Origin: Leptolyngbya sp. FACHB-261
Lineage (GTDB): Bacteria; Cyanobacteriota; Cyanobacteriia; FACHB-261
Length of the DNA stretch: 64,000 bases
Reading direction: 5' to 3'
Assembly: GCF_014696065.1 (NCBI RefSeq)
Contig: NZ_JACJPL010000026.1
Location: forward strand, 248,001 to 312,000
Each line of letters opens with the position of its first letter. Positions within the stretch are counted from its first letter, which is position 1. The notes under the pieces were generated by a model. The model did no database searches, was not told where the DNA came from, and worked only from the letters and a program-made list of their open reading frames with translations. Shown piece by piece: positions 2,950 through 28,280 of the stretch. The position numbers and the translations under genes are program-made.

Positions 2950-3111
2950 ATGGCTAGCTCTATAGAATCTCTGTGGCGAGACGTAACAAATTCTGCAAGA
3001 TCTTTAGAGCTAGCCATAAACTTTCAAAGCATCGCGCGGGCAATTGTGAAACGGTTGCCCGATGACGATGATTACCCTACTAAAATCATCAAAAATATGA
3101 AGCTTGTATGA
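2950..3111 (+). CDS. Small hypothetical protein, 53 aa
   Basis: ATG at 2950 to TGA at 3109-3111. The product begins MASSIESLWRDVT and ends IIKNMKLV, with an acidic run (PDDDD) near residue 40 and a basic stretch before it (ARAIVKRL). Composition looks like a real soluble protein rather than random sequence, but the ribosome-binding site is weak. The first codons (2950-2962) and codons 19-23 (3005-3017) form a perfect 13-base inverted repeat, so the ORF overlaps a potential RNA hairpin. It lies 90 bases upstream of the nuclease-ParA gene on the same strand and might belong to that operon. I recognise no family. Treat it as a plausible but unproven gene. Confidence 0.35.
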   Translation: MASSIESLWRDVTNSARSLELAINFQSIARAIVKRLPDDDDYPTKIIKNMKLV

Positions 3112-3201
3112 TTTTCCCGGTAAATAAGTAACGGGCGGCGTGGATATTCATCTTCGAGTGGGCAGACTGGGACTGGACATTGCCTGAGCCGTCCTCACCC
3201 C

Positions 3202-4542
3202 ATGAACACGACAACCATTAGTCTTCGCGCTGCCCTGCGAAGTCTTCCTGAAAATGCCCAGGAACCCATTGTTGAGACGCTTTTTGCAACGCCGCTGCTA
3301 GAAGCATTAGGGTTTCAGTCTGGAGAAATTCATCCAGAGTACAACACTGGCGATGGAGCGGTTGATAAAGCCGCCAGAAAAACCATCGGAGACGATGTTT
3401 TTCTATATACAAAAGCGAATCCCTATCTCCTAGTTGAGTTGAAAGGGAGAGACATCAACCTATCCAGCGAGGCCGCAGACTATCAAAAGACAGTCAAGCA
3501 ATTAAAGCGATATCTGCTTGCGCCTAACTGTCAGACAGTCCAGTGGGGAATTATTACCAATTCTTGCCACATTCAACTATTTCGGAAGCATGGGAGAGTA
3601 ATTTTCCCAGCAACCCAGTGCCTTTCCCTAAACGAAGACAATGTTGATCAAGTCGTTGCTCTCATACGCCAAAAAATTGAAAAGCCAGCCAAGGCCCTGA
3701 CGATTGCCGTTTACAACAACAAAGGCGGCGTTGGGAAAACAACGACAACCGTTAATCTTGCCAGTATCCTAACTTTTCTAGGCAAGAAAGTCTTGGTGAT
3801 TGATCTTGACCCCAATCAGCAAGATTTAACAAGTTCTCTAGGTTTACCAGTGAGCAAGGGAGACGTTCTCAATGCTCTTACCGAACGGGAAGTCAAGCTT
3901 CAGAGCGCTATCCGTCCCTATTCATTTCCCCTGAAGACCAAAAAATCAGAGCTTAGATTTGACATCATTCCGGCTGATGAAGGATTAGTCGAAGAATCTG
4001 AGGCGTTACTAAATCAGCGGATAAAACGCAATGCGCTTTATCGAAAGTTAGAACCGGCAAGACAAGAGTATGACTATATTCTGATAGATGCCCCACCTAA
4101 TTGGCGTTTTTACAGCCAGCTCGCTGTCTACGCAGCTGATGTCGTTCTCATGCCAACAAAGCATAATAATCTTTTCTCCCTGGAGAATGCCGCAACGGCA
4201 ATCAAGAAGTTCATCCCTAAAACGCAAGAGGAAAAGGCTGATGGCACTCCCGTCGCCTTGCCAATTTTCTTCAATGGCGAGAAGATTACCCCACCTCAGC
4301 TAGCGGTTGCACAGCAGGAAATCAACAGCATTATCAAAGCTGTCAAGAAGGAAGAGAAGTTTGATCTGTTGCCTTACTTCTATCCCAGATACACCAACGC
4401 CGTCAGAGATCTCCACATCCATCAAATACCGAGCTACGCTAACATCGCCGGTGCAGCCTTTTCGCGCACGCCCGCAGTCTACCGCGATAGATCGGCTCAT
4501 GAGTATTACAAAAATCTAGCCAAGGAGTACTTCCTGCAATGA
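3202..4542 (+). CDS. Restriction-type nuclease domain fused to ParA/MinD-like ATPase
   Basis: A 446-residue two-domain protein. Residues 1-165 resemble the N-terminal nuclease region of type I restriction R subunits: D65 followed by the strand YLLVELKGR supplies a likely PD-(D/E)XK site with E79 and K81, and the domain continues with GIITNSCHIQLFR. Residues about 167-440 are a ParA ATPase with deviant Walker A NNKGGVGKTTTT, the DLDPNQQDLT switch and IDAPPNW (Walker B). ParA proteins dimerise on ATP and bind DNA non-specifically. The ATG has no strong ribosome-binding site. The stop overlaps the start of the ParB-like gene by four bases (ATGA), so translation is coupled. Replicon partition, defence, or both are possible roles; the nuclease fusion argues against a plain partition ATPase. 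Confidence 0.85.
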   Translation: MNTTTISLRAALRSLPENAQEPIVETLFATPLLEALGFQSGEIHPEYNTGDGAVDKAARKTIGDDVFLYTKANPYLLVELKGRDINLSSEAADYQKTVKQLKRYLLAPNCQTVQWGIITNSCHIQLFRKHGRVIFPATQCLSLNEDNVDQVVALIRQKIEKPAKALTIAVYNNKGGVGKTTTTVNLASILTFLGKKVLVIDLDPNQQDLTSSLGLPVSKGDVLNALTEREVKLQSAIRPYSFPLKTKKSELRFDIIPADEGLVEESEALLNQRIKRNALYRKLEPARQEYDYILIDAPPNWRFYSQLAVYAADVVLMPTKHNNLFSLENAATAIKKFIPKTQEEKADGTPVALPIFFNGEKITPPQLAVAQQEINSIIKAVKKEEKFDLLPYFYPRYTNAVRDLHIHQIPSYANIAGAAFSRTPAVYRDRSAHEYYKNLAKEYFLQ

Positions 4543-5225
4543 GTAATCCCAGAGATATTGGCAACTTGATGCATCTATACCTAGATGAGATCAGCCCTGG
4601 CAACGGAACCGATGCCCCTGAGTTTTTGCTCAAAGCGTCCGCCAATCTGCTCAATCAAAAAGGGGGACGAAACTGGATCCCAGTCATCGTCAAAGAAACC
4701 GGCGAAGACAAGTACGAAGTCATCGGCAACTCCTTCGTCTATGCTGTTGCTGAAAAGGCTGGCTTAGAGCGCATTTGGTGCATTATTGCTGACGACAGCA
4801 GCGATACAGTCGAGATTACCAAAGTACTTGCAGGCGAAGAGGTACCCAAAATCAACCTCTCCAAAGCTTCTAGAGACGAGATTATGGCAGCCCTGCAATA
4901 CTTAATTGAGCAACCCGCCAGCGCTCTCAAGACCGTCAAACTGGCCGTTGCGACCAATAGAATCGATGAAGCTCCCCGTCAATACTGGAAGAACTTCGAG
5001 CCCATCACAAACCTAAAGTGCGGCATCACCAAAGGCAAAAAACTTGACGCTCTCAAGCAAGTGTTTTATCTGACACCTCAAACAATGCCAGACACCATCA
5101 CCGACGCAGACATTCTCAAAACGATGTCAACAGCGGATTTAAAAGGAATGGCCAAGAAACGCGGTATTGCTGGTCTAAGCAAGATGAAAAAGGATGAACT
5201 CGTCGTTGCCCTGAGTAAGAATTGA
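4539..5225 (+). CDS. ParB-like / Rho_N (SAP-like) domain protein
   Basis: A 228-residue protein translationally coupled to the nuclease-ParA gene. Residues about 8-85 look like a ParB/sulfiredoxin-type N-terminal domain: LMHLYLDEISP, WIPVIVKETGEDKYEVIGN and AGLERIWCIIAD. The CTP-binding GERR motif of true ParB is not present; the equivalent position reads IGNSFVYAVAEKA, so a classic CTP-clamp function is doubtful. Residues about 195-228 form a Rho_N/SAP-like helical motif (ADLKGMAKKRGIAGLSKMKK) that usually binds nucleic acid. No helix-turn-helix typical of chromosomal ParB is obvious in the middle. A nucleic-acid-binding partner for the ParA-nuclease is the most natural reading. A probable terminator follows at 5273. 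Confidence 0.75.
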   Translation: MSNPRDIGNLMHLYLDEISPGNGTDAPEFLLKASANLLNQKGGRNWIPVIVKETGEDKYEVIGNSFVYAVAEKAGLERIWCIIADDSSDTVEITKVLAGEEVPKINLSKASRDEIMAALQYLIEQPASALKTVKLAVATNRIDEAPRQYWKNFEPITNLKCGITKGKKLDALKQVFYLTPQTMPDTITDADILKTMSTADLKGMAKKRGIAGLSKMKKDELVVALSKN

Positions 5226-5343: not shown

Positions 5344-6633
5344 TCATAAATGAGCCTGTAAATACTGCCGATACAAATTGCAGCGTGTCAGTATACTATC
5401 TCCTTGAAATTTCACCAAGCCAAGGCTGTGCAATTTAAATTTATTTACCGTTGATAGTTTGACAGAATCATCGTCAAGCAAATTTTTCATTGCATCTGCT
5501 AATTCTGGCTGCTGTGTCAGAATTAAATATTGACGGCGTAGATGGTCTGCGTAGATACTTGACGAACTCATAGCGTTTTGTAGTATTTGCGCCAAAGTAA
5601 CATCCATATTGGCTAGATGAAAAAGGGTAAGACGCACTAAAAACGGATGTCCGCTAACCAGTTTCATTAATCCTTCAACTTCAGTCTCGTCCAAATTTAA
5701 TTGATGTCTTCGGGCTAAATCTAAAATTTGCTTCTTATCAAATTCAGGCAATTCTACAGATAGACCTACATTAAATGGTGAGTGGTTGATATCAAGAGGT
5801 ACGTACACTTCTGTAGAATGTACAATGACCAATCGCAGTTTCTTCCAAATCTCTCGCCATTTGCCTTCTTCATGCAAAGCGCGCAACAGTCCAAAAAAAT
5901 CTCGGCAAATTTCTGGATATTCAAAAACTTTGTCTACCTCATCCAAGCCAAGCGTTAGTGGTTTGCCGATGGTTGGTAGTAGATATTCCTCAAAATAGGC
6001 TTTGCATGCCATGCTACTACCCAAAATTTCCGCTAGATCCCAATAATCGCTAAGCTTATTGGGTATGTTTAAAGCCAAACTAACACTGGCACAAAACCAG
6101 CGAAAAAATTTATCTGAATTGACAAAAATTTCCTGGGCTGCGAGTTGAAAATCTAATATGACGGTGCAATCACCTTGAGATTTTGATCCCTCAATAATTC
6201 TGAGCAACAGCGAAGTTTTACCCATTTGCTTGGGTGCTTTAATTCTAATTAAAGCGCCAGGTTTTTGAATCTGTTCGTAGCAGCGTTCTTCAATGGGCAA
6301 GCGCTTAATATAAAATGGCGAATCGAGCGGCACTTGCCCGGCTGGGATCTCGCCAGTTGTAGCAGATATTGTGTTGGCAGCAGGCGATGAAAATACATCG
6401 TTCGCACTTTCTACCGTCAGATCAGCAACATTTTGCCATTCCAGTCCCAAAGCCCGACAAATTTCTCTAAAATTAAGGTAATCGACAGGTTTACCATTCA
6501 GAAAACTGCTGATAGTAGATTGAGACATCTGTAAATATTCAGCTAAATCCGTTTGGCGAATGTAGCCATTACGCGGTAGCGCTGATTTTGCTTCTGATAT
6601 GAATTCGGGACGTACTCTAACTGAACGTGGCAT
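5344..6633 (-). CDS. HTH (XRE-type) plus AAA-like (AAA_35) ATPase
   Basis: A 429-residue protein when started at the ATG at 6633, which has AGGTG about nine bases upstream; a GTG at 6645 would add four residues. Residues 1-70 hold a helix-turn-helix with TDLAEYLQMSQSTISSFLNG. The AAA-like ATPase domain follows, with Walker A APKQMGKTSLLL (Lys near 139) and Walker B LTLGLDEVDKV (Asp near 231), and later SGHPFLVRLTLFHLA typical of this family. Such STAND-like proteins are abundant in cyanobacteria and poorly characterised; the same ATPase type recurs in the giant protein at 7995. It is divergent from the TPR gene at 6805. A signal-sensing or antiphage role is possible but not shown by sequence. 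Confidence 0.85.
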   Translation of the reverse strand: MPRSVRVRPEFISEAKSALPRNGYIRQTDLAEYLQMSQSTISSFLNGKPVDYLNFREICRALGLEWQNVADLTVESANDVFSSPAANTISATTGEIPAGQVPLDSPFYIKRLPIEERCYEQIQKPGALIRIKAPKQMGKTSLLLRIIEGSKSQGDCTVILDFQLAAQEIFVNSDKFFRWFCASVSLALNIPNKLSDYWDLAEILGSSMACKAYFEEYLLPTIGKPLTLGLDEVDKVFEYPEICRDFFGLLRALHEEGKWREIWKKLRLVIVHSTEVYVPLDINHSPFNVGLSVELPEFDKKQILDLARRHQLNLDETEVEGLMKLVSGHPFLVRLTLFHLANMDVTLAQILQNAMSSSSIYADHLRRQYLILTQQPELADAMKNLLDDDSVKLSTVNKFKLHSLGLVKFQGDSILTRCNLYRQYLQAHL

Positions 6634-6804
6634 GTTTGATATCACCTAAGATATTCAATCTCGCTACAAAGTCGATACGTACTCGATATACTCCCATGCA
6701 AACTCAAGTGCTGCCAAGGTTACATAGGACTAGTAGGAATAAGGCTCAAGCCGACCCAATACACAGCCCTACTTTAACTGAAAACCTTTCTGGATTGTAT
6801 AGCC

Positions 6805-7994: not shown

Positions 7995-10900
7995 ATGAAC
8001 AATAATTTTTCATACAAAGTTGGCGGAAGCCTAGCAGAAGATGCTCCTAGTTACGTAATTAGGCAGGCAGATTCTGATCTTTACAACGAATTGAAAGCTG
8101 GGAACTTTTGTTATATCTTTAACTCTCGCCAGATGGGCAAAACTAGCTTGCAAGTCCGCACAATCAAACGACTGCAAGCAGAAGGAATCGCTTGTACTAC
8201 AATTGATATTTCTGGACGCGTTAGTAAAGACATAAACCCGGAACAGTGGTATGCGGGTATTGTTTACACCTTAGCTGCAAGTTTTGAAATAGCTAATCCC
8301 AGTGAATTTATTAGAACGTGGTGGAAAGAGAACTGCGAATTATCGCCTATACAACGTTTAGACGTATTTATTGAAAAGTTCTTGCTAGAAAAAATTCAAA
8401 GTAAGATAGTCATTTTTATTGACGAGATTGATAGTATTTTAAGCTTGCAGTTTAAAGGTGACGATTTTTTTGCCTGGATTAGAAGTTGCTATGAAAAACG
8501 TAATCTTAATAGCGAGTTCAATAGAATCACTTTTGTCCTTCTTGGCGTAGCAACACCTAGTGATTTAATCGCAGATAAAGTACGAACACCCTTTAATATT
8601 GGCTGTGCAGTCCAACTCGATGGTTTTCAAATCCAGGAAACTTTCCCTTTAGCATCAGGCCTAAAAGGAATTGAAAATCCACAAGCTATTTTGCAAGAAG
8701 TTTTGGCATGGACTGGGGGACAACCCTTACTTACACAAAAAGTATGCGATTTGTTAGTAACTCCCCAAAATCTTATCCATTATCACTCGCTAAAAGCAAA
8801 GGGAGAAATTACAGAAGCCGAATGGGTGGAGAATGTTGTCAGACAGCAAATCATCGAAAACTGGGAGTCACAAGACGAACCCCCCCATTTAAGAACCATC
8901 AAAGATAGAATCTTGATGAGCAGGCATAATACAGGTGCGTTGCTTGGCTTGTATCGGAAAATTTTACAATTAGGACAAATCCCCGCTTCTGATAGCCCAG
9001 AACAAATAGAATTACGGCTATCTGGATTAGTCGTAGAACGACAGGGATACTTAAGAGTTTATAACCGTATTTATGCAACAATTTTTGATTTAAATTGGGT
9101 AGAAAAAGCACTCGCCGATCTAAGGCCTTACTCAGAAGCATTATCAGGCTGGTTTGCTTCAGGCTGTCAAGATAATTCTAGATTGCTGCGTGGTAAAGCA
9201 TTAGAAGATGCAAAAAAATGGATGGCTAATAAAAGCCTGAATCAGCAAGACTACCAGTTTTTAACGGCTAGCCAAGAATTTGAAAAGCAAGAAATAGCTA
9301 CAGCATTATCTCTTCAAGAAGAAGAAAGTCGCATTTTAGCGCTAGCTAATGATACTTTAACCGCAGCCCAGCATCAGGCCAGACGGCAAGTTCGTATTGG
9401 TGGTGGCGTTCTTATTTGTTCTCTTATTGGAGCAGCGATTGCTTTTATATCTGCAACTAATCAGTTACAAGAAGCTCAAGAAGGTACAAGATTAGAACAA
9501 GCAGGAGTAGCAGCCCTACGGCAGTTTGAAACAAAACAAATTGAATCTTTAGTCACAGCGGTAGATGCAGGGCAAAAGTTAAAAAAGCTTGTAAAAGATG
9601 GACGTTCTATAGAAAAATATCCTGCAACAAGTCCAGTTTTAGCTTTGCAAACAATTCTCGATGATATTCATGAAACAAAGCAATTTGTTGCTCATCAAGA
9701 CGATATTACAACGGTGAACTGGAGCCACGATGGCCAGTACATCATCACCGCTTCTAATGATAAAACTGCTCGTGTCTGGAACTTGTCAGGTAAGCTGATA
9801 ACCGACCTAAGAGGACACCAAGAGGGAGTTTTTATTGCTAGCTTTAATCCGGATGATAAACATATTCTCACTGCATCAAATGGTTTAGATAGAACAGTTC
9901 GTATTTGGGATTTTTCTGGGAAGCAATTAGCGATACTTAAACATCAAGAAGATGTAACTGATGCCAGTTTTAGTCCAGATGGAAAACGTGTAATCACTAC
10001 CTCCTTGAAACCGCCTACTGCAACGATTATAAATGGAGAAACTGTGGTTAGTGCCTCTACTGAAAAAAGCGTTCGCGTATGGGATTTGTCTGGCAACTTA
10101 TTGCTGCAACTTAAAAATAGAGTTAATAGTGCCAGTTTTAGCCCGGACAGTAAATATATTCTTACCGCTTCTGATGACAAGACTGCCCGTATTTGGGATA
10201 CATCGGGCAAACTATTGCGAACATTCACAGGACATTCAATGGCCGTTAACAGTGCTAATTGGAGTCCGAATGGGAAATATATTCTAACTAACTCTGATGA
10301 TTCCTATGTTTGGGATCTTTCAGGTAAGCAAATTGCACGATTCAAAGTAGATGATAAGTGGGCAACGACTCAGACTGGTTTTAGTCCCGATAGCCAGCAT
10401 ATCTTTGTAGCAACGCCCCACAAAACTTACATTAGGGATTTATCTGGCAGGCTGATTAGAGAAATAAAAAATGAGAAGGTACTAAATAGTGATGCAGGAT
10501 TTAGTCCAAATGGCAAGAGGTTTTTTACAACTGATGACACTATAAAAGTGTGGGATATAAGAGACGCAGCTGTGAAAACATGGGATCTATCAGGTGATCT
10601 ACTCACCGAACTGACAGGCAATCAAAGGAGCCCCCGCTGGAGTCCCGATGGTAGATATATTGTCACTTTTGGACAAGATCGAATGGTTCGTATCTGGGAC
10701 TTATCTGACAGAACACCAGTAACTATCAAATCAAAAGACGGTGTTATGGGAGCAAGCTGGAGTCCCGATGGTAAATATATTGTTACCCCAACTCAGGAAT
10801 CCGTACTGATTTGGGATAGTTATGGTAAGCAGTTGGCAAGATTTCAAGGACATTCAGATCTTGTTAGTAGTGCTAATTTTAGTCCAGATGGAAAACTAAT

Positions 10901-11801
10901 TGTCACAGCCTCAAGTGATAAAACTGCTCGTGTCTGGAATACATCCGGAGAACAGTTGTTATTGCTTCCTGAACATGAAAATGGAATAGAATATGCTGCT
11001 TTTAGTCCAAACGGCAAGTATATTCTAACGACGACCTATGGTGACAGTAATAGCAAAACTAGAATTTGGTCGAAGTCGGGCAAGTTATTAACTACATTCA
11101 AAGCTAGAGGAATTAATTGGAGTCCTAATAGCAAATATATTATGGCTACGTTTGATTATGACGGCAAAAACTACTCTAGCTTGTGGAGCATTTCGGGTGA
11201 AAAAATAGTAGATTTTAAAGGAAGTAAAAATAGCTATCTTGGTGCCAGCTTCAGCCGAGATGGAGAGCATATTGTTACGACTGACGGAGATACGTTATCC
11301 ATTTGGAATACATCTGGTCAAAAAATATCAGAATTTAAAGCGAACCAAGAGATTTATAGCCCTAGCTTTAGTCCAGATGGAAAACTAATTATTACTACTT
11401 CCCCAGATAACAGGGTGATCATTTGGGATACTTCCGGCAGACAATTGGTTGAAATACCTCATCAAGATATGGTTGCGCTTGCTAAATTTAGTCCAGATGG
11501 GAAGCGTATTGTCACGACTTCAGGCGATAAAGTTTTTCGGATTTGGGATATATCAGGTAAGCTACTAGCACAATTTAAGCATTCATCTGTATTTACATCA
11601 CCAGTAAATTTCAGCCCAGATGGAAAATATATTCTTGCGCAGATAGCTGGTCAATTCTCTCATAATAATGAGGTGCTGATTTGGCCTGTTGACGAATTAG
11701 ATGGGTTACTGGCACGAGGCTGCCACTGGCTAAAAGATTACCTGGACACTCAACCTCAAGTACGAGAAAGATTAAAAGTTTGTCGCGCAGGATCTCTATA
11801 G
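7995..11801 (+). CDS. AAA-like (AAA_35) ATPase with C-terminal WD40 propellers
   Basis: A 1268-residue protein. Residues about 10-330 form the AAA-like ATPase: Walker A FNSRQMGKTSLQ with Lys49, and Walker B IVIFIDEIDSIL. A linker follows with the family signature WFASGCQDNSRLLRG. One transmembrane helix lies at about 468-488 (GGGVLICSLIGAAIAFISA). From about residue 565 to the end there are roughly 15-16 WD40-type repeats with the pattern FSPDGKYILTAS...VWDLSGKLL, enough for two propellers. The layout suggests a membrane-anchored STAND-type protein with its ATPase on the cytoplasmic side and a large repeat sensor. Proteins of this design are frequent in filamentous cyanobacteria; targets are unknown. 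The gene is AT-rich. The repeats are degenerate at DNA level, so recent tandem expansion is not evident. Confidence 0.9.
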   Translation: MNNNFSYKVGGSLAEDAPSYVIRQADSDLYNELKAGNFCYIFNSRQMGKTSLQVRTIKRLQAEGIACTTIDISGRVSKDINPEQWYAGIVYTLAASFEIANPSEFIRTWWKENCELSPIQRLDVFIEKFLLEKIQSKIVIFIDEIDSILSLQFKGDDFFAWIRSCYEKRNLNSEFNRITFVLLGVATPSDLIADKVRTPFNIGCAVQLDGFQIQETFPLASGLKGIENPQAILQEVLAWTGGQPLLTQKVCDLLVTPQNLIHYHSLKAKGEITEAEWVENVVRQQIIENWESQDEPPHLRTIKDRILMSRHNTGALLGLYRKILQLGQIPASDSPEQIELRLSGLVVERQGYLRVYNRIYATIFDLNWVEKALADLRPYSEALSGWFASGCQDNSRLLRGKALEDAKKWMANKSLNQQDYQFLTASQEFEKQEIATALSLQEEESRILALANDTLTAAQHQARRQVRIGGGVLICSLIGAAIAFISATNQLQEAQEGTRLEQAGVAALRQFETKQIESLVTAVDAGQKLKKLVKDGRSIEKYPATSPVLALQTILDDIHETKQFVAHQDDITTVNWSHDGQYIITASNDKTARVWNLSGKLITDLRGHQEGVFIASFNPDDKHILTASNGLDRTVRIWDFSGKQLAILKHQEDVTDASFSPDGKRVITTSLKPPTATIINGETVVSASTEKSVRVWDLSGNLLLQLKNRVNSASFSPDSKYILTASDDKTARIWDTSGKLLRTFTGHSMAVNSANWSPNGKYILTNSDDSYVWDLSGKQIARFKVDDKWATTQTGFSPDSQHIFVATPHKTYIRDLSGRLIREIKNEKVLNSDAGFSPNGKRFFTTDDTIKVWDIRDAAVKTWDLSGDLLTELTGNQRSPRWSPDGRYIVTFGQDRMVRIWDLSDRTPVTIKSKDGVMGASWSPDGKYIVTPTQESVLIWDSYGKQLARFQGHSDLVSSANFSPDGKLIVTASSDKTARVWNTSGEQLLLLPEHENGIEYAAFSPNGKYILTTTYGDSNSKTRIWSKSGKLLTTFKARGINWSPNSKYIMATFDYDGKNYSSLWSISGEKIVDFKGSKNSYLGASFSRDGEHIVTTDGDTLSIWNTSGQKISEFKANQEIYSPSFSPDGKLIITTSPDNRVIIWDTSGRQLVEIPHQDMVALAKFSPDGKRIVTTSGDKVFRIWDISGKLLAQFKHSSVFTSPVNFSPDGKYILAQIAGQFSHNNEVLIWPVDELDGLLARGCHWLKDYLDTQPQVRERLKVCRAGSL

Positions 11802-20270: not shown

Positions 20271-20561
20271 TCATGGGTTCAGGCCCCCACCCGCTCCACC
20301 ACGCAGTCCTGTATAGATGGACTGAGCAATTTGCTGGCCTAGACTCGATGGATCTTGGGCTGAAGCTTGAGCTGGCGTAACTGTCAGGTTGGCAGGCAAA
20401 TTGGCGATTGTGCCACCGGCTTGCCAATCTGCTGGCAAGCCCTGAACTGTGAGCAAGTGAGCCAGTTCACCCTCAATTGCCACTTGCAAGCGGCGACGCT
20501 GGCTAGGGGAAAGGTCAATGCCATTTAGGATGAGCCGGTCAATTTGCAAATTGATGTTCAT
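20271..20561 (-). CDS. Small eCIS-associated protein, 96 aa
   Basis: A 96-residue protein, last gene of the injection-system operon, overlapping the AAA ATPase stop by four bases. It starts NINLQIDRLILNGIDLSP, continues with a helical RRRLQVAIEGELAHLL segment and ends with an Ala/Gly-rich tail (LRGGAGGGLNP). No cysteine, TM segment or signal peptide. Small proteins with this kind of start are often found after the ATPase in eCIS loci; their function is not known to me. The coupling to the ATPase suggests a joint role in assembly. Confidence 0.75.
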   Translation of the reverse strand: MNINLQIDRLILNGIDLSPSQRRRLQVAIEGELAHLLTVQGLPADWQAGGTIANLPANLTVTPAQASAQDPSSLGQQIAQSIYTGLRGGAGGGLNP

Positions 20562-22672
20562 GCCACATCTTCAGGGGCTTGCCAGCGAAAATCAGCCTCG
20601 TTGATTGGGCGTTCTAGCTTGCGAAATTCTGTGCGTGCTGCTGATAAAACGTGAGGCATCGTAACTGCCGTTCCCGCCCGCGCAGCCAGAAAAGCAGCAT
20701 TAATTGCAATCGTGTGAATGCTACCCCCTGCTAGATTCAAACGTCCCAGTCGCTCCAGATCTAGAGCTTGAGTGGGAGCATCCTCAGGAAACACTTTCTG
20801 CCACAGACGCTTGCGGTCAGACACGGACGGAAACGGAAATGCAATCACAAAGCGTAGGCGGCGCAGAAAAGCATTATCCAAAGCACTTTTTAAATTAGTT
20901 GCTAGAATCGCCAGCCCACTGTAGGTTTCAAGCCGCTGCAACAGGTAATTAACCTCAATGTTGGCGTAGCGGTCGTGGCTGTCTTTGACCTCGCTGCGTT
21001 TGCCAAATAGAGCATCGGCCTCATCGAAAAAGAGCAGTGCTCCCCCATCTTCCGCCGCGTCGAAAAGACGGCGCAGATTCTTCTCTGTTTCGCCGATGTA
21101 TTTGCTCACTACTGCTGAGAGATCAATGCGATAGAGGTTCAGGCTTAGATCGTTCGCTAGTACCTCAGCCGCCATAGTTTTGCCCGTGCCGCTCTCGCCC
21201 GCAAATAGAGCGTTCACGCCGAGACCACGATTCATGCGACGACGGAAACCCCAATCGTCATACACGGTGCTGCGTTGACGCACCTGATCAGCAATTTGGT
21301 GCAACAGATCCAGCTCCTCAGCCGGGAGCACAATATCGTCCCAGGTTGCTTTGGCATCAAGGCGCTGGGCTAGGGTGTCCAGTTGAGGACGCGTGCTAGC
21401 AAGACAGCCTTGCCATAGCAGGTTGTCTAGCGCAGTTGCCTGATAAGTTGTTCCCGATTGAGCTGCCCCCGATTGAGCTGTCTCTATCTGTACTGTCTCT
21501 ATCTGTGCTGTTTTTTTCCACGCCGACTGCGTAATTTTGGCAATCTCAGCTAAGTTCAAGCGAAATTGATTAGCAAGGCGAGCTGGATTCTGGCCAGCTT
21601 GCTCCCCTAGCGCTAGTTGCCAAAGCTGCCGCTGCTCGGTTGGCGTCGGTTTGGGAATATCCAAGCTGAGCACTGCCCGGTCCAAAGTCAAACCAACGTC
21701 TCGGCTATCAAGAAAGAAAATACCATTACTACGGCTGAGAAAACGGCGGAGCAGAGCTAGTGAACCCGCCTGATCGGGCGCGTTATCTACCGCTTCAAGA
21801 TCTAGATAGAGAGCTAATGGTAGCAAGAGGCTTTCCCGTTGCCACAGACGGCTAAGCAACTCTAAGTCAGACGCCTGAGCAGGCAGCAGTTCTACCGGTA
21901 GCCGATAGGGATGTAAGCCAAGTTCAGTGCAGGTTTGCCAAGCAATCAGCTGCTTACTGGCCGGATCTGCACCCAGCAATTGCAAGACTGGTAAGGGTTG
22001 GTTGGGAGCAGCCTGCCGTAAGTGGTCCACAATTTCCCTTACGATTGCCAGCTGAGAGGGGGGCAGGGGCAGCCCTTCGGCTAAAAGCTGGTGCGGATCG
22101 AAGGAAAACAGCAGGGAGCCCAGCTGCTCATCCAGTTCATTCAGGCCTTTCAAATAATTGACAATGCGCTGATTAGCGCGCATGGAGCTAGTGGTCAGCG
22201 GTTGGGCACTAGTTTGATTGATTTCGATCAGTCGCCAGTAGCGTAACGGGCGTTCTGGAGAGAGCAGGTCCCAAGCCGGTTCGTCAAACAGGGTCAGGGC
22301 CAAGGCCAGCGTGGGATAGGGCCGATTTGGATCATCCTGCGCCTGGGCACAGAGACTGGGAATCCGTGTATCTAGCTCCATTGCTGCGCACAGCAGCAGC
22401 ACCGCTTGCTCGAAGCGGGACAGCCCAAACCGTTGACTTAGAAGCACGAGGGCAGGCGGCGGTTGCAAATCCTCAGGACCGTTGAGCACCGTAATGGCCT
22501 GTGCCAGATCTGCCGCAGATCTGGCTTCTGAGCGGCTGAGTTGGGCCAAACGGGAGCGCAACCAGGCTAGGGCTGAGGTCAGATAACGCTCGTTGCCGAC
22601 TAGCCAGGTGTTGTGCCAAGTATCGGGCTGGGTAGCGGGCCGGGCATGGGGCCAAGGGTCGGACGTGCTCAT
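20558..22672 (-). CDS. AAA+ ATPase of contractile injection system (Afp15/Pvc15-like)
   Basis: A 704-residue protein. The N-terminal 430 residues are a degenerate winged-helix/AAA-like region with VLLSQRFGLSRFEQAVLLLCA, typical of eCIS ATPases. The active AAA+ domain is C-terminal: Walker A FAGESGTGKTMAAEV (Lys near 498), Walker B ALLFFDEADALFGKR (Asp near 550), sensor LAILATNLK and the arginine-finger region FLRRLRFVIAFPFP. Family members are thought to assist particle assembly, or load or remodel components; they are cytosolic. A Gln/Thr-rich repeat (IETVQIETAQSGAAQSGTT) sits just before the AAA domain. Both ends overlap neighbours by four bases. Confidence 0.9.
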   Translation of the reverse strand: MSTSDPWPHARPATQPDTWHNTWLVGNERYLTSALAWLRSRLAQLSRSEARSAADLAQAITVLNGPEDLQPPPALVLLSQRFGLSRFEQAVLLLCAAMELDTRIPSLCAQAQDDPNRPYPTLALALTLFDEPAWDLLSPERPLRYWRLIEINQTSAQPLTTSSMRANQRIVNYLKGLNELDEQLGSLLFSFDPHQLLAEGLPLPPSQLAIVREIVDHLRQAAPNQPLPVLQLLGADPASKQLIAWQTCTELGLHPYRLPVELLPAQASDLELLSRLWQRESLLLPLALYLDLEAVDNAPDQAGSLALLRRFLSRSNGIFFLDSRDVGLTLDRAVLSLDIPKPTPTEQRQLWQLALGEQAGQNPARLANQFRLNLAEIAKITQSAWKKTAQIETVQIETAQSGAAQSGTTYQATALDNLLWQGCLASTRPQLDTLAQRLDAKATWDDIVLPAEELDLLHQIADQVRQRSTVYDDWGFRRRMNRGLGVNALFAGESGTGKTMAAEVLANDLSLNLYRIDLSAVVSKYIGETEKNLRRLFDAAEDGGALLFFDEADALFGKRSEVKDSHDRYANIEVNYLLQRLETYSGLAILATNLKSALDNAFLRRLRFVIAFPFPSVSDRKRLWQKVFPEDAPTQALDLERLGRLNLAGGSIHTIAINAAFLAARAGTAVTMPHVLSAARTEFRKLERPINEADFRWQAPEDVA

Positions 22673-23889
22673 GGCAGAACAACCTTTTGGGCTGGATCGA
22701 AAACTGGCGGCGAGACGGAGCGGTCTACTAGGAGACTATCCACGCCATCGACCCGCAAGCGCAGCCAGTACTCACCCCTGGGAACACTGCGGCGGTCAAA
22801 ACGCAGTTGCTCAAGCTTTTGTGTTGTGACCGGCGCGTCGGGGTCAACCTGTGGGCGCAATTCCCGCTCGCCTAGCAACAGCACCACCTGTTGCTCCGGC
22901 CAGATCTGAGGCCGACAGGTCAGCGTCAGCTGCTCCGGTCCCAAAACTGGTGCTGGCAGAATTTCAGGAGCAAGGGTGAAGGGTAGAGCATTAGTGGTTT
23001 GGATTCTGCCGTCCTGCCTGACCTGTACAGAGACCGTATAAGCTCCAGCAGGCCAGTCTGTAGCTTGGTCCGGCAGGATGACTGTCAAGGCAGTTGCAGT
23101 GCTGTTGGGCTGAGCAGCCAGTTCGATGGGGGCAGCTAAGCGCGGATGGCGAAAGCGCACTACGGGTTCAGGTTCACTATCGAGGTGATTGCCCCGCAAG
23201 ACGAGAGGCTCGCCTAAACGCAGGCTAGGCTGCTGATTGGGCAGTTGCAGCGATTCGAGAGTGGGAAAGGGCGGCGTCAGGCTGGCTTGAGCGAGCACAC
23301 CTCGATCGCTGGTACCACGCGTCAGCACAGGTAGAGGGGTGCGGATCGGACGCTGGCTATCAATTAAGACAACCGAAACTTCGTAGGCGGCCGAGATCCG
23401 GTACTGAGTTTGAAAGGTTGTCCAAAGCTTGGAAAGATCTTCTAGCGAAAGTGGTTGTGGCGTGATGCGTACCCGCTCGATTTGATTGTGCAAGTCACTA
23501 TCAGCCAGAGCGGTTTGGATATCCAGAGGATTGAGCAGGGTGTGGTCGTGCAGAATGCGCATTGCTTGCCCCAACAAGCGATGGCCAATGACATCATCGT
23601 TACCCTGGCTGTAGGCCGTGACTAGGTAGTAAAGGTTTAGGGCAAGGGGCAAGGGACCTGTCTCACCAGGCCGAACCCGCTTGGGCATGCTGGTGTTGCT
23701 CCAGGCTGCATTGGGCAGGGTTTGGTAGAGAAACAAATTGATTTGATTGCCACTGTCGCCGTTCTCGCGAGCTTTGTCTGGTGGCCGGGTAGTGACGCTG
23801 CCACTGCCCAATTCCTCGGTGCTGCCCTGCGCAATCAAGTTACGCAGGGTCGCCGTTACAGCAGCAATTGCCAGAGAATTGCTCATCAC
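22669..23889 (-). CDS. DUF4255 protein (Pvc16/Afp16-like tail-cap protein) with Ig-like region
   Basis: A 406-residue protein. Residues 1-190 match DUF4255: SLAIAAVTATLRNLI, INLFLYQTLPNAAWSN, LALNLYYLVTAYSQ and LGQAMRILHDHTLL. In Afp/PVC particles this protein caps the tube and sheath end and stops polymerisation. Residues about 225-400 look like beta-sandwich IPT/Ig-type modules (GEPLVLRGNHLDSEPEPVVRF; VILPDQATDWPAGAYTVSVQV), a usual extension in this family. It overlaps the ATPase start by four bases and its own start overlaps the preceding stop by one base, within the tightly coupled operon. Confidence 0.88.
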   Translation of the reverse strand: MMSNSLAIAAVTATLRNLIAQGSTEELGSGSVTTRPPDKARENGDSGNQINLFLYQTLPNAAWSNTSMPKRVRPGETGPLPLALNLYYLVTAYSQGNDDVIGHRLLGQAMRILHDHTLLNPLDIQTALADSDLHNQIERVRITPQPLSLEDLSKLWTTFQTQYRISAAYEVSVVLIDSQRPIRTPLPVLTRGTSDRGVLAQASLTPPFPTLESLQLPNQQPSLRLGEPLVLRGNHLDSEPEPVVRFRHPRLAAPIELAAQPNSTATALTVILPDQATDWPAGAYTVSVQVRQDGRIQTTNALPFTLAPEILPAPVLGPEQLTLTCRPQIWPEQQVVLLLGERELRPQVDPDAPVTTQKLEQLRFDRRSVPRGEYWLRLRVDGVDSLLVDRSVSPPVFDPAQKVVLP

Positions 23890-25433
23890 TAGCCTCCATT
23901 GCGCTGTTTCAAGTAGTCATCCAATGAACGTGTGGGACTGCGTCGGGTTGGCTGGGCACGTGAAGTAGCCGGTGGCGTTGGTGGATTAGCCCGAACTTCG
24001 ATCCGACCAATACGAATCTCGACGGTGGGTAGGCTGGCACTGGCTGTCTGCTGTTCTTGACGTTCTGTTGCTCTAGGCTCTGCCTGAACCAAGTTTGGAT
24101 GGGTCAGGTTTTGGCTGTCTGAGGCGATCATTGGAGCTGGCTGCTGGGGTAAGCCGAGCACAGGTTGGGTGAGGCTATGAAGCTGAGCTGCCCCAAGCAT
24201 GCTCGGGCTCTCCGGTGAACCTGTTGGAGATGGTTGAGGATTGCCTGAGAATACTGAAGCCAGTGAATCAGAACCCACATCCCTGGAACGCAGAGACGAG
24301 GAAAGGAGGGGCTCTTGGTGGCTGAGGCCACTTTGCTCCTTGCCTTGCCCCAAGAGGATACCGACCTCAAGTGCTTCAGGTAAGGACAAAGAGCCCTGCT
24401 GATTCAGCGCAACTGGCGGCGATACAGACTCAGAAGCGCCGACTTCAGAAGATTGACGTCGGAGTTCACGCATCTCCTCCGGGTGGGGAGAAACCAATAT
24501 TTGCTCTCTGCGCTGCTCCTGGTTAACGTGCCATACAGGATTGGGAGGAGTTGCAGAAATCAAGGGCAGATCAGTAGAGGTAGCAGTCGAATCCAAAACA
24601 GGCTTGGACTCGAAGCTAGAACTTGATGGCTGGTCCGCAGATAGTGCTAAGTCTGAAGAGACCGAAGCAGATAATGGCTCAACTCCAGCTCGGAAAGAAC
24701 GCTCAGATCTCGGTGGCGCCTCAGTTCCAGAATCGGCTAGGGGTTGAGGCTCGGGCCAAGCTTCGCTACTCCGCAGCTCTGCCGGAGGCGTCTGTAGATC
24801 TGCTGGACTAGAAGGACTTAAGGCTGGGGCTGATGGCAGCAAGGGCGAGGCTGAAGGGGCTAAGCCAGGTGCCGCAGAGGATCGTTGACTGGACGTTGAC
24901 TCAGGTTGTCTTGCAGGAGGGGCAGAGATACTCTCAGTGGAAGCCACTCCCGGAGGTTGGCCAGGGAGCTGCAAACCAGTCTGGATCAACAGGTCCTCAG
25001 TTTGAGTTGGGAAACCAGAGGAACCAGTTTCAACCGGATTTACAAGCGGAGAGGCTGAGTCTGACAACTGCGAAGACTGCGAAGACAACTGCAAAGGCTG
25101 GCCAGAGGTCGACGTCGGGGTTGAAGTGAGAGGGCTTTCTGAACTCTGTCCTGCTGACATCGGGACTTGCCTATCCAGCTGCTGAGACGGTCCAAACTGC
25201 TGCCGACTTGGCGCTGAGTTTGGCGGCAAAGATGGCGCTGAGAAAACTGTTTCCAGCTCAGGGCCAGCCTCATCTGAGGAGGGGACTTGTATTGTAGGTA
25301 CTTGCTGCTCTGACAAAGCCCAGGTGCTGCCGACCATCTCCTGTTGGGGTGCAAACAGGGAGGCGACTACTGGTTGCACTCCTGAGGTCAAGCCCAGTGT
25401 GCGTTGAGTCAGACGAGTGAGAAAGTCCGTCAT
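23889..25433 (-). CDS. Disordered Ser/Pro/Gln-rich eCIS protein with conserved C-terminal tail
   Basis: A 514-residue low-complexity protein. Residues about 30-455 are dominated by Ser, Pro, Gln, Ala and Glu with no hydrophobic core and are probably disordered. The ends are different: the first 35 residues contain the amphipathic start DFLTRLTQRTLGLTSG, and the tail carries VEIRIGRIEVRANPP followed by SLDDYLKQRNGG. A similar tail, as I remember it, recurs in eCIS-linked proteins of other bacteria and could be a docking peptide. Both ends overlap neighbours by one base. Function is unknown; ruler, scaffold or anchoring roles are possible. Confidence 0.75.
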   Translation of the reverse strand: MTDFLTRLTQRTLGLTSGVQPVVASLFAPQQEMVGSTWALSEQQVPTIQVPSSDEAGPELETVFSAPSLPPNSAPSRQQFGPSQQLDRQVPMSAGQSSESPLTSTPTSTSGQPLQLSSQSSQLSDSASPLVNPVETGSSGFPTQTEDLLIQTGLQLPGQPPGVASTESISAPPARQPESTSSQRSSAAPGLAPSASPLLPSAPALSPSSPADLQTPPAELRSSEAWPEPQPLADSGTEAPPRSERSFRAGVEPLSASVSSDLALSADQPSSSSFESKPVLDSTATSTDLPLISATPPNPVWHVNQEQRREQILVSPHPEEMRELRRQSSEVGASESVSPPVALNQQGSLSLPEALEVGILLGQGKEQSGLSHQEPLLSSSLRSRDVGSDSLASVFSGNPQPSPTGSPESPSMLGAAQLHSLTQPVLGLPQQPAPMIASDSQNLTHPNLVQAEPRATERQEQQTASASLPTVEIRIGRIEVRANPPTPPATSRAQPTRRSPTRSLDDYLKQRNGG

Positions 25434-26173
25434 CAGCCGCTCACTAAATCTAGATAGAACTGCCGTCGTAGCGGGCTCATCGCTAAAATGTCAGCCTCAC
25501 GCCAGCCGTAGAATCGCGCTAGGGTATGCACTTCCCGCAATAAGCGTTTAGCCTGCACGCCAAGCTCGGTCCAGAAGAACGAGAGGATGTCAAACAGGGC
25601 TGACCAGCGGTGCTGGCAGGCTGGACATTCGAGGTTCAATTGAATTTCTGCCTGGGGATCCCATTCAGTCATTTGTTCGACTAGTTGCTCCAACACCTGT
25701 GGAGGCAACTCAGCGTAAGTAACCGATGAGCCCTGACGACTAGCTTTAAGCAAACAGCGTTGAAGTAACCAGGGGGAAGGCGTTGCTCTGGCTCGGACTA
25801 AAGCAGCTAAATCCCAGCTATTGGGCAGGCGTAATTCCAACTCAAATTCTGCCAGGGTCAACGAGTAAGTTTGCACTTTAGAGCTAGCAGTATCAGTGGC
25901 GTCTATCAGACGGATATCTGCGGCATTCAGCGCGAATTCCAAGCGTTCTTTGCAACGTGAACATTCAGCTGAACCGGTCAATTGGGAGCCAAATGTGAGT
26001 TCTCTAAGCGTCAACAAGTGAGCATCGCGTTGGCCAATACTCAGCGAGGCGAGTTCAGCCGATGAGCGCTCTGGGTAAGCGAAACGAAGCAGGGTCAACG
26101 CCCTATCTAAAGGATGCTGACCCTGTCCGATTTCCCAGATCTGCAAGATTTGATGGGCAGACAGGGGACGCAT
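25433..26173 (-). CDS. T4 gp26-like baseplate hub chaperone/zinc protein of eCIS
   Basis: A 246-residue protein. The start (LSAHQILQIWEIGQGQHPLDRAL) and the body match the group annotated as T4-type baseplate hub assembly proteins in contractile injection loci. Two CxxC pairs, CSRCKERLEF near residue 70 and CPACQHRWSAL near 190, could hold one zinc ion. The C-terminus WREADILAMSPLRRQFYLDLV is the most typical segment, found in many tail assembly proteins. It presumably helps assemble the baseplate hub, although the baseplate genes are not in this window. It lies between the tube gene (3-base gap) and the disordered protein (1-base overlap). Confidence 0.75.
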   Translation of the reverse strand: MRPLSAHQILQIWEIGQGQHPLDRALTLLRFAYPERSSAELASLSIGQRDAHLLTLRELTFGSQLTGSAECSRCKERLEFALNAADIRLIDATDTASSKVQTYSLTLAEFELELRLPNSWDLAALVRARATPSPWLLQRCLLKASRQGSSVTYAELPPQVLEQLVEQMTEWDPQAEIQLNLECPACQHRWSALFDILSFFWTELGVQAKRLLREVHTLARFYGWREADILAMSPLRRQFYLDLVSG

Positions 26174-26176
26174 GCT

Positions 26177-26707
26177 TTAGCTCGGTTCTGTGAAGCTGGG
26201 TTCAGTGGGCTCGGTTACTTCATAATCCCGTTCCCAGCCTTCGTTTTGCAACTTGATGCTCTGAATCGCAATCGCCTTGCCATTAGCATCTAATTCGGGC
26301 AAAGCCTGAAATTCAGACACCCAACAACGAAAGACTTTGTAGGCAATGGCAACTTGACCTGCTTCGTTGAGAACTTCGATGATAATGTCTTTGCGAAAGT
26401 CCTTGAGTGAGACTTCTGAACCTAAACCAGAACCATAATTCCAAACTTTATTAGCCCACTTTTCGAACTCGGTGTCGTGAGTGACGCCTCGCTCTAAAGT
26501 AATCGGTTCGTATTTAGTCGGTCCTGGTGAATAGCGTTCGCTGCTGAGATCCCCACCTTCGCGATGAGGAATTGCCTCGGTGCTGCGTTTGAGGGAGCCA
26601 ACTTTGCTGACGCCAGCGACATACCTTCCATCCCACTTGACGCGGAACTTGAAGTTTTTGTACGGATCAAAACGGTAGGTGTTGACAGTGAATTGAGGTG
26701 CAGGCAT
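26177..26707 (-). CDS. Contractile injection system tube protein (gp19/Hcp-like)
   Basis: A 176-residue tail-tube protein. It begins YRFDPYKNFKFRVKWDG, followed by VAGVSKVGSLKRSTEAI and the loop YSPGPTKYEPITLERGVTHD, all typical of the phage T4 gp19-like tube family. The C-terminal extension ends in VTEPTEPSFTEPS. Hexameric rings of this protein stack into the inner tube that is pushed out on sheath contraction. The gene follows the sheath gene with a 16-base gap. Only one tube gene is present, while many eCIS have two or three. Confidence 0.92.
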   Translation of the reverse strand: MPAPQFTVNTYRFDPYKNFKFRVKWDGRYVAGVSKVGSLKRSTEAIPHREGGDLSSERYSPGPTKYEPITLERGVTHDTEFEKWANKVWNYGSGLGSEVSLKDFRKDIIIEVLNEAGQVAIAYKVFRCWVSEFQALPELDANGKAIAIQSIKLQNEGWERDYEVTEPTEPSFTEPS

Positions 26708-26723
26708 GACTTGTTCTTACTCC

Positions 26724-28280
26724 TTAAACCGCAACCTGACCGGCCATTTGCTGGAATTTGAGAATCACAAATTCGGCTGGCTTAAGCGGGGCATAACCGA
26801 CCACGATGTTGACAATGCCAAGATTGATATCGTTCTGGGTCGTGGTCTCACTGTCGCACTTGACGAAATAGGCTTCTTTGGGTGACTTGCCTTGAAAAGC
26901 GCCCTGGCGGAACAGGTTGTTCATAAAAGCGCCGAGATTCAACCGAATCTGCGCCCAGAGGGGTTCATCGTTGGGTTCAAAGACAACCCATTGGGTGCCG
27001 CGATACAGGCTCTCCTCTAGAAACAGAGCTAAGCGACGCACCGGGATATATTTCCATTCTGAGGCGAGGCGATCGTCCCCTTGCAGCGTGCGTGAGCCCC
27101 AAACTACCCGTCCGGCGGCGGGAAAGGTGCGCAGGCAGTTGATGCCCAGAGGGTTCAACTCGCCGTTCTCGGCATCAGTAAGCGATACGCTCAGTTCTGG
27201 CACGCCAACCAGCGTAGCTTCTATCCCGGCTGGAGCTTTCCAGACGCCGCGTTGGGTATCTGTGCGGGCAAAGATGCCAGCTACAGCACCACAGGGTGCG
27301 AAGGTTTCCACCTGGTTGCCGCGCATAGGATTGGGCTTGCGCAGGTGGGGGAAGAAAACAGCTGCGTTGCGGCTCTTAGTGCCCAAAGCAGCAACACCCG
27401 TACTCGTACCATCACCCTTGGCTGCGTCCTTATTGGTCCAACTACTAGGCGCATCAATAATCAACATGGCCTGCCGCCTTTCGCAGTAGCTTGCAGCCTC
27501 GCCCCATACGGTGTTGGCAATGTCCTCACCCGGTTTGGGGGGCGGAATACACAACAGATTGAACAAATCTGCTTTCTCTAGAGCGTAGAGACCTTGCTTG
27601 TTGACCTCACTGCCACTGTAGGTGTTGGTGTCCAGATTTTGCCCGTCGGATCCACCACTGCTAGCACCTGCTTCTGATTCACCAACATCGGGGCGACTGC
27701 TTGGGAGCGAACCGGGCAATCGCACTAGTTGCGATTCCCGTTCCAAAACTTTGTCGACTCGGCGCACATCATCCGGACGAACCGAGACATTTCGAATGAC
27801 CTCAACCTGGCCCGTTCCAGCATCTTTGATCGAAAGGTTGAACAGATTAGCCTTGTCGTCATCCGACCCTACAACGTCGTGGTTGACGCTAGCCTGCAAT
27901 TGATTGCCCCAGGCTCCTTCGCTAGCGGCTTCTAGATTGAGCGTGCTGAAAGCGAGTTGGGCCTTAGCAGGTGGGGCAGCAGCAGGAGCAGCAGAATCAG
28001 CAGGTGAGGCATCGCCGCGAAACAGTCGCACAATGACCGCCTGACTGCCACCGTTCAGATAGAAATCTCGCACCGCATAGCCGAGCGTACTTTGAACCCA
28101 CAGCCCACCAAAAACGCGTTCAAAATCACCAAAGCTATTGACCGTAACAGGTTCGTTAACCGGCCCACGTAAGGCACGGCCTAAGAAAGCAGTAATTGAA
28201 GTCGCAACTCCGGTAATGGTGCGCACACCACTCGGAATTTCTTCAATATAAACGCCAGGATAAGTCGGTGTGACAGGCAT
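26724..28280 (-). CDS. Contractile sheath protein (phage tail sheath family)
   Basis: A 518-residue sheath protein starting at ATG 28280 behind GAGAGGAAAA. The N-terminus TPTYPGVYIEEIPSGVRTI and the C-terminal domain AFMNNLFRQGAFQG, EAYFVKCDSETTT and VGYAPLKPAEFVILKF are diagnostic. Residues 95-240 form a variable insertion with an Ala/Pro-rich stretch (DSAAPAAAPPAKAQ). Sheath subunits form the outer contractile cylinder around the tube. This is the first gene of the seven-gene operon running to 20271, and the only sheath gene here. The upstream 840 bases hold no gene, so the promoter should lie there. Confidence 0.96.
   Translation of the reverse strand: MPVTPTYPGVYIEEIPSGVRTITGVATSITAFLGRALRGPVNEPVTVNSFGDFERVFGGLWVQSTLGYAVRDFYLNGGSQAVIVRLFRGDASPADSAAPAAAPPAKAQLAFSTLNLEAASEGAWGNQLQASVNHDVVGSDDDKANLFNLSIKDAGTGQVEVIRNVSVRPDDVRRVDKVLERESQLVRLPGSLPSSRPDVGESEAGASSGGSDGQNLDTNTYSGSEVNKQGLYALEKADLFNLLCIPPPKPGEDIANTVWGEAASYCERRQAMLIIDAPSSWTNKDAAKGDGTSTGVAALGTKSRNAAVFFPHLRKPNPMRGNQVETFAPCGAVAGIFARTDTQRGVWKAPAGIEATLVGVPELSVSLTDAENGELNPLGINCLRTFPAAGRVVWGSRTLQGDDRLASEWKYIPVRRLALFLEESLYRGTQWVVFEPNDEPLWAQIRLNLGAFMNNLFRQGAFQGKSPKEAYFVKCDSETTTQNDINLGIVNIVVGYAPLKPAEFVILKFQQMAGQVAV

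Follow-up and report, generated by a model that had tools for sequence, protein, structure and literature searches.

ParA and ParB are standard tools of DNA segregation, and a cyanobacterial operon in which a ParA-type ATPase is fused to a nuclease-like domain and followed by a ParB-like gene raises the question of whether such a pair segregates DNA or inspects it. The two genes, here called A and B, lie in a window of 64,000 nucleotides (the whole stretch of DNA that was analysed) on an 857-kb contig of a 6.9-Mb cyanobacterial genome. An earlier sequence-only reading had proposed DNA surveillance for them. Both open reading frames were recovered where that reading had placed them, with a 4-bp ATGA overlap (Table 1).

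Table 1 Coordinates of the operon, its leader and the domains of its products within the window
Feature	Position	Strand	Remarks
58-nt leader directly 5' of gene A	3144..3201	+	conserved in 14/16 aligned close homologues; single copy
Gene A, nuclease-ParA fusion	3202..4542	+	446 aa
N-terminal HSDR_N/PD-(D/E)XK-like domain of A, residues 1-165	3202..3696	+	PF13588 E=5.1e-7; E21, D55, E79, K81 conserved
ParA/AAA_31 ATPase domain of A, residues 167-446	3700..4539	+	PF13614 E=7e-36
Gene B, ParB_N-like protein with Rho_N/SAP tail	4539..5225	+	228 aa; start overlaps A stop by 4 bases
ParB_N-like domain of B, about residues 8-100	4560..4838	+	GN replaces GER(R); ParB_N in 20/26 homologues
Middle module of B, about residues 104-180	4848..5078	+	conserved WKxLxPIxxLKCGITKGKKLxxL (alignment)
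Rho_N/SAP-like DNA/RNA-binding tail of B, residues 193-227	5115..5219	+	PF07498 E=3e-8

Gene A joins a nuclease domain to a ParA ATPase

We investigated the domain composition of A with Pfam. The HSDR_N_2 profile (PF13588) matched residues 27-128 above cutoff and was found in 16/29 A homologues at E<=0.01, and the AAA_31/ParA match covers residues 167-342, with a deviant Walker A motif that reads NNKGGVGKTT. Residue conservation was counted over 63 non-redundant homologues, reaching down to ~24% identity. The ParA residues K174, K179, D203 and D296 are kept in 63/63, and the nuclease part conserves E21 (61/63), D55 (61/63), E79 (62/63) and K81 (60/63) together with G116 and N120 (each 62/63). 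E79 and K81, picked out as catalytic from the sequence alone, are nearly invariant, whereas D65, proposed as the catalytic Asp, was rejected as a metal ligand because only 40/63 homologues keep it; the metal-binding Asp is D55. Judged from these alignments, A carries a complete set of predicted nuclease and ParA ATPase residues.

The N-domain profile of A, in whose building no outside restriction enzymes were used, also picks up Type IIG-like restriction-modification enzymes of 1.3 kaa. This independent retrieval supports a true nuclease relationship of the domain, and the Pfam matches together with the conserved residues bear out the joining of a type I restriction-like PD-(D/E)XK domain to an intact ParA. 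Structure prediction gave uninformative models, with a pLDDT of 52 for A and 56 for B, from shallow alignments of 16 sequences each. A PDB search with B returned nothing below E=0.001 except a local Rho_N likeness, and the profiles of B and of the A N-domain retrieved no solved relative.

Gene B is a ParB-like protein without the CTP motif

In the window protein the ParB_N match (residues 48-91) is sub-threshold in Pfam (E=0.0065), but ParB_N is recognised in 20 of the 26 B homologues, with a best E of 1.5e-5; the ParB_N relation is therefore carried by the family rather than by the window protein. At the GERR position the 26-row alignment reads GNxxxxxA, with Asn64 invariant (26/26), in agreement with the ParB-like N-domain without the GERR CTP motif that had been described from the sequence. 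Canonical ParB proteins activate ParA through an N-terminal tail. The ParB_N-like domain of B begins about eight residues from the N-terminus, and most B members have, by their sequences, no room for the usual ParA-activating tail.

The Rho_N/SAP-like tail was likewise confirmed, the Pfam match to Rho_N (residues 193-227) being above cutoff. Across the 26 homologues, the family scan found Rho_N in 15, SAP in 11, HeH in 4 and HhH in one, and no HTH family. The CGIT-type middle module matched no Pfam family of its own in the domain scans. In some homologues (the C-termini of L099, L100 and L101) this module is duplicated, replacing Rho_N, as seen from second partial matches to B model positions 105-182.

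Leader and borders of the cassette

The leader profile matches only directly before A, with a score of 32.9 bits in the window, and nowhere else in the loci; no second copy was found elsewhere in the genome itself. In the close clade the leader is conserved while everything farther upstream differs, and no conserved sequence was found 3' of B. An RNA structure was rejected since the fold received no support (z-scores -1.2 to +0.9), and a coding-frame part was discarded because of in-frame stops in the homologue L029, seen by eye. The leader is thus no multi-copy centromere, and is probably a promoter/operator or a translational control element, promoter/operator being the best reading. Between the neighbouring SDR gene and the leader, at 2950-3017 of the window, lies an inverted repeat with 17-nt arms (94%) and 34 nt between them; the 272 bases around it occur once in the genome.

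A and B form a conserved, patchily distributed pair

A strong match to the N-domain of A was found in 39/292 genomes drawn across Cyanobacteria, and B is present in 34 of these 39, against a random expectation of about 5. The five genomes with A and without B comprise four of one family with a lone A and one in which A lies at a contig end. Over 53 loci the A and B distances are correlated with r=0.94, a value reached in 0/1000 permutations. A and B are a conserved cyanobacterial pair, far beyond chance, and the coupling read from this one stretch of DNA extends to the family as a co-occurrence of the exact pair. Fifteen close full-length loci (67-79% identity) lie in cyanobacterial genome contigs, with a few cyanobacterial plasmids besides. 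No published description of the pair was found in the open-licence literature, where absence is no proof of novelty.

Within genera the distribution is patchy (2/16, 2/13 and 10/12 in three genera), and the pair occupies many unrelated sites, mostly chromosomal, including single-contig chromosomes. No third gene is conserved beside it across loci, and A-B behaves as a stand-alone accessory cassette. No relative was found in viral contigs, and phage records match mainly the ParA part.

Several loci depart from this arrangement. In four genomes of one family (L106-L108 and L166) the lone A keeps the nuclease and ATPase residues where aligned, and there it may act alone or with another partner. 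Looser relatives (L161-L163) share the plan: they encode an HSDR_N-ParA protein, and at least two of them have behind it a gene whose product is ParB_N-like or ends in a Rho_N or other tail. Broken copies of A, with an in-frame stop in L200 (G331), a split frame in L105 (G058) and a truncation next to an ABC permease in L150 (G187), show repeated loss of the system.

A and B evolve unevenly in some lineages

In the genus g59, where 10/12 genomes carry the pair (at one site where checked), pooled dN/dS over the ten genomes, at similar dS, was 0.645 for A as against 0.29 for a flanking gene and 0.125 for B. Within A, dN/dS was 0.53 for the nuclease and 0.71 for the ParA part, and in windows around residues 241-300 and 361-420 dN was about equal to or above dS. 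One g59 genome has a stop inside A, so part of the high dN/dS of A in this genus may reflect relaxed constraint. In a pair of g47 genomes, dS reached 1.15 for A as compared to 0.28 for B and 0.27 for the neighbouring methyltransferase gene, which indicates that A was swapped in place while B stayed; this pair is a clear outlier in the family-wide distance comparison. The contrast in rate is lineage-specific: A and B show similar distances when the family is taken as a whole. That one subunit is swapped or changes fast while its partner stays constant would be typical of conflict systems and unusual for partition pairs.

Defence-type genes at or near the site of the pair in some genomes only

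In g47, A-B is present in 2/16 genomes, beside the methyltransferase gene. When this position was compared in ten genomes, two held A-B, G150 a Type IIG-like enzyme, G280 and G328 an McrB-like ATPase, G324 and G113 vWA and PP2C (TerY-like) genes, and the remainder other genes. The family libraries were run on a single genome of each kind, and the identification of the second McrBC gene and of a Type IIG remnant in G195 is by eye only. In the window itself, DruA ends 1.6 kb before A, with HxlR and SDR genes lying between.

At most loci examined, A-B is flanked mainly by housekeeping genes, and the PADLOC scan found no enrichment of defence models near the pair (101 proximal versus 102 distal families, distal neighbours being genes 4.5 kb or more away). 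A general defence-island context was thus looked for and not found, and the defence context of A-B is suggestive rather than general. The accessory setting invoked in the sequence-only reading is seen at the g47 site and, through NurA, HerA and DruA, in the window, but it does not hold generally. Another site, in Nostoc and 3' of ndhJ, is variable and not clearly defence-rich, and PIN/HicB-type genes were noticed by eye beside A-B at several sites.

Other genes of the window were also inspected. Positions 1-1606, together with the upstream sequence (L090 5583-9606), encode NurA-like and HerA-like proteins and then DruA (PF14236, E=2.8e-67), probably a three-gene defence set with NurA outside the window. 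Directly downstream of the pair, a TPR gene lies between two genes for AAA_35 proteins (5344-6645 and 7995-11801), of which one has an HTH and the other many WD40 repeats. Contractile-injection-like genes (an AAA ATPase, sheath- and tube-like proteins) were recognised by eye from the ORF list on the minus strand at 20558-28280.

Relation to known systems

The nuclease domain of A belongs, by Pfam and profile matches, to the HSDR_N family of Type I and Type IIG enzymes and conserves their D..E-x-K residues. In contrast to these enzymes, no SF2 motor (translocase), N6-methyltransferase or specificity domain or subunit was found in A or B, nor does a conserved third gene supply one; the ParA ATPase stands instead. 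In ParB/Srx proteins such as GmrS, DndB, Osa and DpdB a ParB-like domain serves outside partition, for restriction of DNA or in plasmid conflict (PMC5512222, PMC12839542, PMC10853773), and one such class was noted to be without ParA partners (PMC5512222). B resembles them in having a ParB-like domain. They differ in being described without a ParA partner or with an HNH or other nuclease, whereas B shows no fused nuclease domain, and neither A nor B gave an HNH match, which separates the pair from the Type IV system GmrSD (ParB-HNH). The plan of nuclease plus ATPase is shared with NurA-HerA systems, although A-B uses other nuclease and ATPase families and forms a separate transcription unit. 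Among the PADLOC models, the sole match of A is to PDC-M28B, and there to the generic ParA part (1.3e-8, 46 residues), and B matches none; A and B together correspond to no described PADLOC defence system.

Possible roles: partition, cargo positioning, addiction or immunity

With ParABS (ParA/Soj and ParB/Spo0J) the operon shares a complete deviant-Walker-A ParA ATPase and a ParB_N-like partner in a two-gene arrangement. This would be accounted for by a ParAB module for partition or stabilisation that came from plasmids, was modified and now often sits on chromosomes; its nuclease domain would clear competing or unsegregated DNA or bind the operator, a task that the N-terminal HTH serves in type Ia ParA; the single conserved leader could be that operator. 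A-B is found on Nostoc, Pseudanabaena and Leptolyngbya plasmids and holds the sole annotated ParA-type gene of a 12.6-kb Pseudanabaena plasmid; the pair may have a maintenance role on some plasmids. However, two Nostoc plasmids carry A-B together with a ParM/StbA partition system, and on a third plasmid a distant A-B adjoins a ParA/ParB pair. Most copies are chromosomal, and B starts directly with the ParB_N domain and has a Rho_N/SAP tail in place of the centromere-binding HTH domain of ParB. The nuclease domain is fused to ParA, a difference from ParABS, and its triad is conserved far beyond the needs of DNA binding. No centromere-like multi-copy repeats were found at the window operon or in its own genome, and the short tandem repeats seen close to two homologues are not shared. 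The pair shows no conserved association with replication genes or centromere repeats; lacking GERR and parS-like repeats, it is not a ParABS member, and we regard the modified partition module, with a clearing or operator-binding role of its nuclease, as unlikely.

Housekeeping flanks, the mostly chromosomal location, the near-universal presence in g59 and the lone A of four genomes would also suit an orphan-ParA system whose nuclease serves to process or repair DNA and whose cargo, to be positioned or regulated, would be the nucleoid, a repair focus or something else. The patchy occurrence at unrelated sites and the in-place exchange of A are unlike housekeeping, and the DNA/RNA-binding-type tail of B speaks against McdAB-like cargo positioning, which makes this explanation rather improbable. 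More improbable still would be a selfish, addiction-type cassette that lacks a dedicated immune role, in which A is a potentially harmful nuclease checked or directed by B and which persists because losing it carries a cost: the tight operon, the PIN/HicB-type neighbours, the want of other partners and a conserved leader with nothing conserved downstream fit it, but B resembles a nucleic-acid-binding ParB protein and not an antitoxin, and some genomes tolerate A alone.

The most likely explanation is a two-gene system that stands alone, moves horizontally and would target foreign DNA (plasmids or phages) in a restriction-like immunity, and we consider its chances to be close to even. It is supported by the retention of D55, E79, K81 and all ParA motifs in the 63 homologues, by the independent retrieval of Type IIG-like enzymes, by the patchy distribution at unrelated sites, by the g47 site, where A-B alternates with restriction- or defence-type genes, together with NurA-HerA-DruA 1.6 kb upstream in the window, and by the unequal evolution of A and B with the exchange of A in g47. 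It is weakened by the absence of general defence enrichment and the mostly housekeeping flanks, by hotspot evidence that comes from one genus only, by the lineage-specific rate contrast, in which high dN/dS could be relaxed constraint, and by the four genomes of one family with A and no detectable B. Of the earlier proposal of DNA surveillance instead of segregation, which is partly supported, the nuclease-ParA fusion, the missing CTP motif and the want of conservation beside replication genes or centromere repeats stand, and D65 as catalytic residue and the general accessory setting do not.

In such a foreign-DNA system, A would bind DNA as an ATP-loaded ParA-type dimer, while B, with its Rho_N, SAP or HhH tail, would be a ParB-like adaptor placed on the DNA under attack or on protein complexes of that DNA. 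Contact of B with A would trigger ATP turnover, by which the N-terminal nuclease domains would be paired and activated and the DNA cut. Arms-race recognition would reside in two variable stretches of A, at about residues 241-300 and 361-420, with B kept constant. We put forward only tentatively that this might be the first immune system driven by a ParA ATPase, in which the ParA-nuclease would search DNA by ParA-type ATP cycling and be fired by a non-CTPase ParB-like adaptor, A being replaced or diversified again and again while B stays constant.

If true, partition machinery would have been turned into DNA surveillance, ParA by acquiring a nuclease and its ParB-like partner by doing without the CTP switch. 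The faster change of A than of B would offer a direct handle on what A recognises, and cyanobacteria would possess an extra, testable barrier to plasmid uptake.
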